Assembly: GCF_030296015.1 (NCBI RefSeq)
Contig: NZ_AP027368.1
Location: forward strand, 1,736,001 to 1,800,000
Source: Ferrimonas sp. YFM
GTDB lineage: Bacteria; Pseudomonadota; Gammaproteobacteria; Enterobacterales; Shewanellaceae
Direction: 5' to 3'
Length of the DNA: 64,000 nucleotides
A program made the position numbers and the translations under genes. Each line of letters starts with the position of its first letter. The first letter of the stretch is position 1. Shown here in pieces: positions 31,498-36,500 of the stretch. Below the pieces are notes generated by a model. It ran no database searches. It saw nothing but the letters and a program-made list of their open reading frames with translations, and was not told the origin of the DNA.

Positions 31498-31511
31498 AAC
31501 GAACGTTCGTT
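31498..31511. promoter_or_regulatory. 14-bp perfect palindrome, likely TetR-family operator
   Basis: AACGAACGTTCGTT is a perfect palindrome followed by a further GTTCGTT-like half-site in direct order. It lies between the divergent SDR and histidine-phosphatase genes, where the TetR regulator encoded in the same cluster would bind. AACGAACG-type palindromes are typical of TetR/AcrR operators. Confidence 0.65.
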
Positions 31512-31574
31512 CGTTATTGACGATAAACTAAACAGCTTGTAGGGTGAAAACAAGTCTCATCTCGGAAACTTCTT

Positions 31575-32246
31575 ATGGATCTCTATCTGCTCCGTCACGG
31601 TCAGGCGATGTTCGGCAGTCCGGATTACGACCAACTGAGCGACCTGGGTCAGCGGCAGGCGCTCTGTCTGGGTGAGGAGCTGGCGGATTGGAACCTGTCC
31701 GATGCCACCCTGGTCAGCGGCAGCCTGAAACGTCAGCGCCAGACCCTGGAAGGGTTGTGCCGGGGCGGAGGCTTTACCCCCACCGACCGGCAGGACCCGG
31801 GGTTCAACGAGCTGGAGATCATGGAGCTGATCCCCCTCTACTGGCCGGCGGCGTGCGAGCGGCTGGGGTTGTCCCTGACCCCCAAGGAAGCCAGTCAGGA
31901 TATGCGCTATTTCCTGCCTCTGATGAGCGAAGCCCTCAGGGTCTGGATTGCGGACCATGGTCAGCGTGAAGGGGAGAGCTTCAGTCAGTTCAGACATCGG
32001 GTCCTCGAGGCCATTGCCGAGCACCATCAGGGGAACAAGCCCACTCTGGCGGTGACCAGCGGTGGTGTCATCAGCCTGGTCGCAGGCGAAGCCCTGGGGG
32101 CACAAGCCTCTCATATGGCTGAACTTATTCACCAGGTTAATAACTGTAGTATAACCCACCTGCGCTATGCCCGCGGACAGTGGCAGTTGCAGGCGTTCAA
32201 CATCAATGGCCACTTGCGCCGACAGGATATGCTGACATGGAGGTAA
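31575..32246 (+). CDS. Histidine phosphatase family protein
   Basis: 223 residues. LLRHGQAM at the N-terminus gives the catalytic RHG, and a second conserved His region lies in LAVTSGGVISLV (Ser/Gly where many have GH). The family covers phosphoglycerate-mutase-like and SixA-like phosphatases. As the first gene of an operon with a kinase-like APH domain and an ACAD10/11-type dehydrogenase, it may hydrolyse phosphorylated acyl intermediates; that is inference. One base separates its stop from the next ATG. Confidence 0.88.
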   Translation: MDLYLLRHGQAMFGSPDYDQLSDLGQRQALCLGEELADWNLSDATLVSGSLKRQRQTLEGLCRGGGFTPTDRQDPGFNELEIMELIPLYWPAACERLGLSLTPKEASQDMRYFLPLMSEALRVWIADHGQREGESFSQFRHRVLEAIAEHHQGNKPTLAVTSGGVISLVAGEALGAQASHMAELIHQVNNCSITHLRYARGQWQLQAFNINGHLRRQDMLTWR

Positions 32247-32247
32247 T

Positions 32248-34142: not shown

Positions 34143-35946
34143 AGCCCTGCGCGCCTATCTGGCGCAGCACCTCCCCCAGTTGGGGGAACTGGCGTCGGTG
34201 ACCCCCTTCGAAGGGGGCGCCTCCAACCTGAGTTTCAAGCTGGAGTGCTCTGAACGCACCATAGTGCTGCGCATGCCCCCCCCGGGCACCAAGGCGGCCA
34301 CCGCCCATGACATGGGCCGGGAGGCGAGGATGCTTTCTGCGGTGGCAGACCGCTTTTCCCAGGTGCCTCAGGTGCTCCACAGCTGTCAGGATGATCAGGT
34401 GCTGGGTTACCCCTTCTTCCTGATGAGCTATGAACCGGGAATCATCTTAAGGCGCTCTCTGCCGGGGAATCTGGGGCTGGCCAAAAGCCAGGCGTCTGCC
34501 TTGTGCCAGACCATGATGGATACCCTGGTGACACTCCACAGTCTGCCCATTGACGGCACACCTCTGGCGGATCTGGGCAAGCCTCAGGGTTATGTGGAGC
34601 GCCAGGTGACCGGCTGGAGCAAGCGCTATCGCAACGCCCTGACCCCGGGCGCCCGAGGCGGAGAGCGGGTGATGAGGTGGCTGGCAGACAACCGCCCGCC
34701 GGAGTCCGGCCAGGCGGTGATCCACAACGACTTCAAGTTCGACAACCTGGTGCTGAGCCCGGAGGACCCTACACAGATCCGTGCGGTTCTGGACTGGGAG
34801 ATGGCCACTGTGGGCGACCCCCTGATGGACCTGGGATGTTCCATGGCCTACTGGGTGGAGGCGGGGGACCCGCCAGAGATGAAGATGCTCAGGCAGATGC
34901 CGACCCATCTGCCGGGCATGTGGAGCCGGCGCCAGCTGGTGGCCTACTACGGTGAGCAGACCGGCCTGGATGTCAGTGGTTTTGCCTATTACTACATCTT
35001 TGGCCTGTTCCGCCTGGCGGCCATTGTCCAGCAGATCTGGTATCGCTATGTGGAGGGCAGCCGTAAACACCCCGCTTTCGCCCGTTTTGGCGAGATGGCT
35101 GCGGTATTGATGGACAGGGCAGCGGCAGAGATTGATGAGCTGGAGCAGGTGGCCGGGCGCCCGGCGCTGTTGCAAAAGATTGAAGGCTCAGGCCTGCTCT
35201 CTCTTGAGGGTAAGGTGGCCCTGGTTACCGGCGCCAGTCGGGGCATCGGCGAGGCGGTGGCCCGCTTGTACGCCGCCCATGGTGCCAAGGTGATCCTCTC
35301 CAGCCGTGATCAGGACGCCCTGGACCTTGTGGCCGCGGACATACGCGAGAGTGGCGGAGATGCCAGGGCGATTGCCTGTCATGGCGGCGACAGCGCCCAG
35401 ATGCAGCAGTTGTTTGAGCGCATCGACGCCGACTATGGCCGATTGGACATCTTGGTAAACAACGCCGCAGCCAACCCCTATTTTGGCCACATTCTGGATA
35501 CCCCCAGAGAGGCGATGGCGAAAACCATCGAAGTGAATCTGGCCGGATACTTCCAATTTGCCCAGCTGGCGGGACAGAGAATGCGAGAGCAGGGGGGCGG
35601 GGTGATCATCAACACCGCTTCGGTCAATGGCCGCGTTCCGGCACCCGGACAGGGGATCTACTCCATCACCAAGGCAGCAGTAAACAGCATGACCGCCGCT
35701 TTTGCCAAGGAGTGCGCCCGCTACAACATTCGGGTGAACGCGGTCCTGCCGGGGTTGACGGAGACCAAGTTTGCGTCGGCGTTAACCGACAACCCGGCTC
35801 TGCTCAGGCAGATCCTGGGACTGATTCCCCAGGGCAGGGCGGCGCAGCCCGGCGAAATTGCGCCTGCCTTCCTGTTCCTGGCGTCCGATGCGGCGGCCTA
35901 TATCACCGGCATCGAACTGCCGGTGGATGGTGGGTATCTGGCCTGA
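34120..35946 (+). CDS. APH-type kinase fused to an SDR dehydrogenase
   Basis: 608 residues from ATG 34120 (GGAGAG upstream; it overlaps the TetR gene by 23 bp). Residues 1-350 are an aminoglycoside-phosphotransferase/ACAD10-type kinase: FEGGASNLSF, Brenner motif IHNDFKFDNLVL (201-212, catalytic Asp 204) and LDWEMATVGDP (metal Asp 225). Residues 360-608 are a complete SDR: TGASRGIG (370-377), NNAA (447-450), YSITK (Tyr 514, Lys 518) and the GIELPVDGGYLA tail. LvaA of Pseudomonas putida and the APH domain of ACAD10/11 phosphorylate 4-hydroxyacyl-CoAs; here the kinase is joined to an oxidoreductase instead. No frameshift is seen, so the fusion is real. Confidence 0.9.
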   Translation: MTQSLNLEALRAYLAQHLPQLGELASVTPFEGGASNLSFKLECSERTIVLRMPPPGTKAATAHDMGREARMLSAVADRFSQVPQVLHSCQDDQVLGYPFFLMSYEPGIILRRSLPGNLGLAKSQASALCQTMMDTLVTLHSLPIDGTPLADLGKPQGYVERQVTGWSKRYRNALTPGARGGERVMRWLADNRPPESGQAVIHNDFKFDNLVLSPEDPTQIRAVLDWEMATVGDPLMDLGCSMAYWVEAGDPPEMKMLRQMPTHLPGMWSRRQLVAYYGEQTGLDVSGFAYYYIFGLFRLAAIVQQIWYRYVEGSRKHPAFARFGEMAAVLMDRAAAEIDELEQVAGRPALLQKIEGSGLLSLEGKVALVTGASRGIGEAVARLYAAHGAKVILSSRDQDALDLVAADIRESGGDARAIACHGGDSAQMQQLFERIDADYGRLDILVNNAAANPYFGHILDTPREAMAKTIEVNLAGYFQFAQLAGQRMREQGGGVIINTASVNGRVPAPGQGIYSITKAAVNSMTAAFAKECARYNIRVNAVLPGLTETKFASALTDNPALLRQILGLIPQGRAAQPGEIAPAFLFLASDAAAYITGIELPVDGGYLA

Positions 35947-35996
35947 TCCTCAGGCTGGAGTTGTACGTAAATCAATGGGCTGAATAGGAGAGAGTG

Positions 35997-36500
35997 ATGA
36001 AGCGGTTGTTCTTTGTTTTTGCCCTGTTGCTGGCTGGCTGTTCGTCGGCTCCTGAGGGGATCGAGCCGGTGCGCCCCTTTGAGCTGGAGCGTTACCTGGG
36101 CACCTGGCATGAGGTGGCCAGGCTGGATCACAGCTTTGAGCGTGGACTGACGAATGTGACTGCCGAATACTCCATGCGAGAGGATGGGGGCATCCACGTG
36201 GTGAACCGCGGCATTCGCCAAGAGACCGGTGAGGTGAGCGAAGCCATAGGCCGGGCTTATCCTGTGGGTCAGCCCGATGTGGCTCACCTCAAGGTCTCCT
36301 TCTTTGGCCCCTTCTTCGGCGCCTATGTGGTGTTCGAGTTGGATCCTGAGTATCAATACGCCTTTGTCAGCGGGCCCAACCGGGACTACCTGTGGTTGCT
36401 GGCGCGTACGCCCAAGGTGTCTGAGGCGGTGATGACCCGTTTCAGGTCGCGGGCCGTGGAATTGGGGTTTGATCTGCAGCCGCTGATCGTCAACCCCTAA
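35997..36500 (+). CDS. blc: Outer-membrane lipocalin
   Basis: 167 residues from ATG 35997 (GGAGAGAGTG upstream). Lipobox LLAGCSS (about 12-18), then the lipocalin signature LGTWHEVARLDHSFERGL and later SPNRDYLWLLARTP-like SGPNRDYLWLLART. Bacterial lipocalins bind lysophospholipids or fatty acids at the inner face of the outer membrane. Just downstream of the kinase-SDR gene, 50 bp away; could be the last gene of the operon, though it may have its own promoter. Confidence 0.92.
   Translation: MKRLFFVFALLLAGCSSAPEGIEPVRPFELERYLGTWHEVARLDHSFERGLTNVTAEYSMREDGGIHVVNRGIRQETGEVSEAIGRAYPVGQPDVAHLKVSFFGPFFGAYVVFELDPEYQYAFVSGPNRDYLWLLARTPKVSEAVMTRFRSRAVELGFDLQPLIVNP

Follow-up and report, generated by a model that had tools for sequence, protein, structure and literature searches.

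A candidate TetR-controlled module for C4-oxygenated acyl-CoAs in Ferrimonas, with a kinase-reductase fusion and a Ser-variant histidine phosphatase

In a 64,000-nucleotide stretch (here, the window) of the 4.66-Mb single-contig genome of Ferrimonas sp. YFM (genome G000; G codes denote genomes and L codes loci), we analyzed an operon encoding a histidine phosphatase, an acyl-CoA dehydrogenase (ACAD) of the ACAD10/11/LvaC type, a TetR-family regulator, and an APH kinase fused to a short-chain dehydrogenase/reductase (SDR). Judged by its sequence, this operon is probably a TetR-controlled module that would feed C4-oxygenated acyl-CoAs into beta-oxidation, with the phosphatase acting in clean-up. 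An earlier, sequence-only reading had proposed a 4-hydroxyacyl-CoA module here, and this proposal is supported at the sequence level by the ACAD tree, the ACAD residues, and the catalytic pair D204/N209 of the kinase. The kinase-reductase fusion would be a new variant of the LvaA/LvaC-ACAD10/11 system.

In the mechanism that we propose, the SDR half would reduce 4-oxoacyl-CoA to 4-hydroxyacyl-CoA in an LvaD-like manner, as suggested by the fusion and by the role of LvaD. The kinase and ACAD steps are proposed because the two proteins are homologous to enzymes that, in the available parts of PMC11342911 and PMC12440821, were shown to perform them. The kinase half would thus phosphorylate the 4-hydroxyl group to give 4-phosphoacyl-CoA, as its homology to ACAD11 and LvaA and its catalytic residues suggest, and the ACAD, with its ACAD11-like residues, would remove the phosphate by internal redox, yielding trans-2-enoyl-CoA for beta-oxidation. 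The fusion would couple reduction to phosphorylation. The phosphatase would most likely hydrolyze phospho-intermediates that accumulate or that are no substrate for the ACAD, because they are the wrong isomer, carry the phosphate at the wrong position, or are free phospho-acids.

The ACAD and the kinase-SDR fusion

The ACAD gene (32248-33438, + strand) encodes a protein with the C-terminal motif IYDGPDEVH. Its nearest solved chains in a sequence search were 4hr3, which we take to be an ACAD of Mycobacterium abscessus, and human and mouse ACAD11. Residues R249, R254, H257-C258-M259-R260, and D377 align with R626, R631, H634-C-M-R637, and D753 of mouse ACAD11, so that the window ACAD carries both the Arg...Arg..HCMR helix of the ACAD10/ACAD11/LvaC subfamily and the catalytic Asp that stands in place of the Glu of other ACADs; PDB chain 8v3v has an Asn exactly at the position of D753. 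According to the parts of PMC12440821 available to us, R626, H634, and R637 of mouse ACAD11 touch the 4-phosphate, are absent from conventional ACADs, and are required for activity, and D753 is the catalytic base.

A maximum-likelihood tree was computed from 76 of 93 rows, 17 having been dropped beforehand; L118_10684, L204_3588, and L127 (ACAD10/11-type, long branch) were dropped, and the rows of L053, L055, L056, L057, L060, L062, L063, L067, and L068 were thinned as near-copies. It split 68 ACAD10/11-type rows, including human ACAD11 and the window ACAD, from 8 ordinary ACADs with 100/100 support, and the split was recovered in 100% of 200 bootstrap trees. The outcome named beforehand as fatal to the proposal, a clustering of the ACAD with ordinary acyl-CoA dehydrogenases, thus did not occur, the window protein instead sharing its side of the split with human ACAD11 and a further 66 rows. 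Since the 68 rows had been labeled by a profile score of at least 250 bits (two PDB rows by hand) and chosen for similarity to the window ACAD, the tree tests placement only against the 8 ordinary ACADs, 5 of which come from the window's own genome. The HCMR motif that gave this group its label is not literal throughout: 4hr3 and L131 have HAMR, L120 has HGMR, and L121 is off-pattern. The ACAD, kinase, SDR, and phosphatase all come from large, paralogue-rich superfamilies, as would suit an ordinary acyl-CoA dehydrogenase with a kinase, an SDR, and a phosphatase as unrelated neighbors. We nevertheless regard this explanation as highly improbable, because it is contradicted by the tree and by the HCMR and catalytic Asp residues, and the conserved neighborhood, the fusion, and the co-occurrence described below also speak against it.

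Within the 68 rows, the window ACAD falls into a 14-row sub-clade (100/99) whose catalytic motif is IYDGPDE, compared with mostly xADGPD in the other sub-clades. This separate sub-clade, together with the extra redox genes at the same control region (the divergent SDR and saccharopine-dehydrogenase-like genes described below), would fit a module that is ACAD10/11-like but acts on another position or CoA thioester (for example, that of a 5-hydroxy, branched, or cyclic acid) rather than on 4-hydroxyacyl-CoAs. We consider such a substrate unlikely, since all published 4-phosphate contact residues are kept and since the replacement of one module type by another within a single genus, presented below, suggests the same substrate class. 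A member of the window sub-clade (53% identical) was also found adjoining a kinase on the 1-Mb plasmid 2 of Gemmatirosa kalamazoonensis, from another phylum (L144, 5281-8664), which suggests lateral spread.

The fusion gene lies at 34120-35946 on the + strand. The open reading frame as listed (632 amino acids) takes an internal GTG as its first codon; translation likely begins with the ATG at 34120, giving 608 amino acids, with the kinase at about residues 1-345 (Pfam APH 27-261, E 1.1e-48) and the SDR at about 359-608 (Pfam SDR 365-606). D204 and N209 of the kinase half align with ACAD11 D220 and N225 (D225 is also listed), and it thus combines an APH fold with the catalytic Asp and assisting Asn of the LvaA/ACAD11 kinases; PDB chain 8v3u carries Ala at the ACAD11 Asp aligned with D204. 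The SDR half retains S501, Y514, and K518, presumably the SDR catalytic triad. A sequencing error was ruled out as the origin of the fusion, because the window and five further Ferrimonas genomes carry it as one open frame, as does G029, which belongs to another family. Kinase and SDR genes are adjacent and separate in G026 and G035, and an SDR at least 50% identical to the fused one was present in 20 of the 66 phosphatase loci described below, with the kinase present in all 20. We thus conclude that the fusion joins two genes that travel together. A structure model of the fusion (pLDDT 76.6, pTM 0.57, seven rows) was set aside as too weak to show how the domains pack, except for the low-confidence linker noted at residues 348-356.

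Comparison of 14 Ferrimonas genomes revealed two forms of the module. A single ACAD of this type (E 1e-45 or better) was found in each of 13 genomes and none in G003; six of these ACADs, including that of the window, share at least 70% identity (type A), and the other seven stand at 39-45%. The latter belong to type B loci (L109-L115), in which ACAD, SDR, kinase, and phosphatase follow one another unfused, in six cases with a further SDR behind them. None of the 14 genomes has both types, which would be the pattern if either could do the same work. The type B SDR between ACAD and kinase is most like the window's divergent SDR (30-41%), and this likeness links the divergent operon with the module. 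The phosphatase gave one strong match in every one of the 14 genomes, with a weak second match at 4e-7 in G005. At the G003 locus (L187), the phosphatase (7907-8719) stands with a neighboring SDR (7144-7953) and a patatin-like gene nearby, and this locus is probably what remains of a type B module.

A Ser-variant phosphatase that accompanies the ACAD

The phosphatase (31575-32246, + strand; His_Phos_1, E 3.9e-25) belongs to branch 1 of the histidine phosphatases. In common with branch 1 (CobC, PhoE, phosphoserine phosphatase), it has the fold and the core of RHG nucleophile, Arg, and Glu; all 27 of the 27 sequences compared keep R7, H8, R53, and E79, which makes phosphohistidine chemistry plausible. 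It differs from branch 1 in the signatures RHGQASFG, NE(Y/F)DH, and (T/S)SGG and in a Ser (Ser162 in the window) that replaces the second catalytic His. This Ser was found in every copy examined: in 44 of 44 aligned, in 10 of 10 further copies, and later in 66 of 66, 6 of which had been counted before. In the four profile alignments printed, out of 23 solved sequences matched, the Ser aligns with the His in VGHGG, VSHQG, or VSHTV.

Searched as a single sequence, the phosphatase had no match in the PDB at 0.001; the profile matched the 23 solved sequences (best E 5.9e-14), none of them close. An AlphaFold2 model (pLDDT 92) gave 50 listed structural matches, all of the histidine phosphatase fold and 15-24% identical, with mutants among them. 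Assignment as a canonical CobC-type phosphatase was rejected, since the NCBIfam scores fell far under every cut-off and the second His is missing. No description of the Ser-variant family was found in the one open-access literature library that we searched, and the family seemingly is undescribed. For the combination of phosphatase, kinase, and ACAD, the search of this library returned only PMC6692424.

The sequence-only reading had left the role of the phosphatase unexplained. Its distribution supplies part of an answer, as it is a recurrent genome-level companion of the ACAD, phylum-wide and in Nocardioides; a function can be proposed from this and from the conserved residues. In a class sample of 274 genomes (phosphatase E 1e-12 or better, ACAD E 1e-60 or better), 20 had the phosphatase, 34 had the ACAD, and 18 had both (Fisher 5.5e-17). 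In a phylum sample of 398 genomes (phosphatase E 1e-25 or better), the corresponding numbers were 70, 137, and 68, with the ACAD present in 69 of the 328 genomes lacking the phosphatase (Fisher 3e-35). Counted by genus, the ACAD occurred in 43 of 45 genera with the phosphatase, compared with 38 of 167 without it (p 6e-20). The two samples share some genomes, and the ACAD matches in them were checked for HCMR in part.

The positional tie is looser. Of the 73 phylum phosphatase matches, the loci of 66 were read together with that of the window, leaving out the second match of G368 and those of G398, G413, G501, G529, and G678. These stretches covered mostly 6-7 kb on each side, some being cut by contig ends; the kinase was present in 36 of the 66, in 24 of them together with the ACAD. 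Among the 20 class matches, 15 lie near the kinase and/or the ACAD, four stand alone (G056, G146, G262, and G295), and G305 has a truncated phosphatase with kinase pieces, its locus (L194) having the appearance of a decaying module. Viewed from the ACAD loci of 20 genomes that have the phosphatase, a kinase lies near the ACAD in 6 (L306-L311); the other 14 (L292-L305) had no kinase match among those listed near the ACAD. Eight loci of family f176 (L244, L246-L248, L250, L251, L253, and L254) have the phosphatase, a gap of ∼0.6-0.8 kb, and then adjoining kinase and SDR genes, with the ACAD elsewhere and no kinase near it. This arrangement is a dispersed form of the module. The neighbors of isolated phosphatases (10 proteins at four loci) showed no common theme, except that at both scanned loci of family f224 (L283 and L289) the isolated phosphatase lies near an alanine dehydrogenase/PNT-like (AlaDh/PNT-like) gene.

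The tight genome-level tie, the loose positional tie, and the conserved nucleophile together favor a clean-up phosphatase over a kinase brake. The brake is kept alive by the Ser substitution and by the precedent of mammalian ACAD10, whose HAD domain, with half a DxD motif, has negligible phosphatase activity and restrains the ACAD10 kinase according to the available parts of PMC11342911. In this reading, the same pathway would operate with the phosphatase as a pseudo-enzyme or kinase regulatory subunit, similar to the ACAD10 HAD domain or substituting for LvaB, that restrains or enables phosphorylation by binding and not by hydrolysis. Its place immediately next to the kinase gene in all seven type B loci of Ferrimonas, its location with the kinase and away from the ACAD in G209, and the presence of a histidine phosphatase gene in a Pseudomonas citronellolis cluster that lacks LvaB (PMC6692424, as far as the available text describes it) are in line with it. 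However, the invariant nucleophile His, both Arg, and Glu are unlike a decayed scaffold, the phosphatase is often distant from the kinase, and it persists in G003 without the ACAD and with no such kinase among the matches listed, and we regard pure binding as doubtful. For the Ser-variant phosphatases in general, there is about an even chance that they form a separate family dedicated to the phosphoacyl-CoA pathway and correspond, across bacteria in general, to the HAD domain of ACAD10, preventing phospho-acyl-CoA build-up either by clean-up or as an altered kinase brake.

Several observations weigh against the module with a clean-up phosphatase. The window ACAD is only a family-level homologue of the tested ACAD11 (231 bits), its sub-clade is separate from the group in which human ACAD11, 4hr3, and the ACADs of the other Ferrimonas modules fall, and the tree contains no named LvaC. 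The window kinase is likewise a family-level homologue of ACAD11 (153 bits) and is matched with higher scores by 9o56, named only as an aminoglycoside phosphotransferase, and 3dxp, both presumably bacterial APH chains; the APH superfamily is moreover common, this genome having 9 matches and 13 of 14 control genomes also giving matches. Among profiles, the SDR half comes nearest to NCBIfam PRK07035, a family named only SDR oxidoreductase, and at 351 bits it scores just under the cut-off of 373. Its LvaD-like role, with a putative substrate position and reaction direction, is suggested by gene context. The genes across 31575-36500 are contiguous (largest gap, 47 bp), none of them encodes an acyl-CoA ligase (LvaE), and there is no space for an LvaB gene. 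Thirty of the 66 phosphatase loci have neither kinase nor ACAD nearby, and the phosphatase occurs without the ACAD in G003, as said, and, outside Ferrimonas, in G501, G529, G295, and G305, the Ser having been read in the G295 copy only and the G305 copy being truncated. Finally, the co-occurrence statistics treat kinship only by genus collapse.

Operon layout and control region

The genes named by the sequence-only reading, including the ACAD with its DGPDEVH-type end, the fusion, and a divergent pair, were all recovered in place by open reading frame and Pfam evidence. On the + strand, five genes lie head to tail, with spacing from a 23-bp overlap to a 47-bp gap: the phosphatase, the ACAD, the TetR-family regulator (33435-34142), the fusion, and, 47 bp 3' of the fusion gene, a Blc-type lipocalin lipoprotein (35994-36500). 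The nearest named relatives at the locus are Ferrimonas species, the fusion protein of F. futtsuensis being 93% identical. The lipocalin gene is present in four of the five other Ferrimonas type A loci and absent from L050, where the stretch ends 1.4 kb past the fusion, and from L104-L106. It is probably a peripheral passenger; it might bind a lipid substrate or be a mere passenger. On the - strand, the divergent operon consists of the SDR (30703-31479) and a Sacchrp_dh_NADP protein, which is saccharopine-dehydrogenase-like and NAD(P)-binding (29620-30702). The Sacchrp_dh-like gene also adjoins the module in G029, G035, and G209 and in four of the five other Ferrimonas type A loci.

Between the two operons lies the palindrome that had been described as common to both, a perfect 14-bp AACGAACGTTCGTT (31498-31511) and putative TetR operator, directly followed by a promoter-like TTGACG - 17 bp - TAGGGT on the + strand (31517-31545, read by eye). 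In a search of the whole genome, AACGAACGTTCGTT was the single site at 0 or 1 mismatch, and a genome-wide regulon built on it is thus unsupported. Mismatch counts also weaken the palindrome itself: at up to 3 mismatches the window gave 2 overlapping matches, a number equaled by 16 of 100 shuffles, and at up to 2 mismatches the genome gave 5 sites compared with 3 for the reversed pattern.

Better support for an operator comes from relatives of the palindrome in the stretch 5' of the first gene, compared between the window and 11 loci related to it. All 11 TetR-bearing stretches (the window, L046-L050, L104, L105, L106, L116, and L189) show a CGAACGTTCG-like element. A perfect element of 10-14 bp stands in the window, L046-L049, and L104, and one that matches at 12 of 14 positions stands in L050, L105, L116, and L189; in L116 and L189 a different inverted repeat outscores it, and the L106 element, CGAGCGTTCG, lies under the script threshold and was seen by eye only. 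No element of the CGAACGTTCG type was found upstream of the first gene in L117, which is without a TetR match. This pattern fits a putative local operator for the operon's own TetR, acting in both directions.

Relation to known systems and significance

As far as the available parts of PMC6692424, PMC12440821, and PMC11342911 describe it, the lva operon of Pseudomonas putida KT2440 (LvaA-LvaB-LvaC-LvaD-LvaE) likewise holds a kinase, an ACAD10/11-type ACAD, and an SDR in one operon, LvaD being the 4-oxoacyl-CoA reductase as retold in PMC6692424. In contrast to it, the window has a TetR regulator in place of the sigma54-type LvaR, lacks LvaB and LvaE, has kinase and SDR fused, begins with the phosphatase, and adds a divergent redox pair. 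The levulinate cluster of P. citronellolis LA18T (PCLA_07f0390-0396) resembles the window in combining a kinase, a histidine phosphatase, LvaC, and an SDR; it differs in having separate genes in another order, another regulator, and adjacent transporter and ligase genes. Its authors suggest, in the available part of PMC6692424, that the phosphatase may strip phosphate from 4-phosphovaleryl-CoA, and they urge functional analysis.

Mammalian ACAD10 and ACAD11 likewise combine an APH-type kinase with an ACAD that has the same key residues, and ACAD10 adds the phosphatase-fold domain with its half catalytic motif. The kinase/ACAD route for 4-hydroxy acids was assigned to these proteins in 2024 and 2025, and in the available parts of both papers the role of the ACAD10 phosphatase-fold domain is still open (PMC11342911, PMC12440821). 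Mammals fuse the kinase to the ACAD, whereas the window fuses it to an SDR, and the phosphatase fold is that of a histidine phosphatase and not HAD.

Fusion of the kinase to an SDR indicates that the substrate upstream is the 4-oxoacyl-CoA, and the alternation of types A and B provides natural replicates within Ferrimonas. A separate, conserved phosphatase-fold protein that accompanies the same two enzymes makes the question of the ACAD10 phosphatase domain testable using small proteins.

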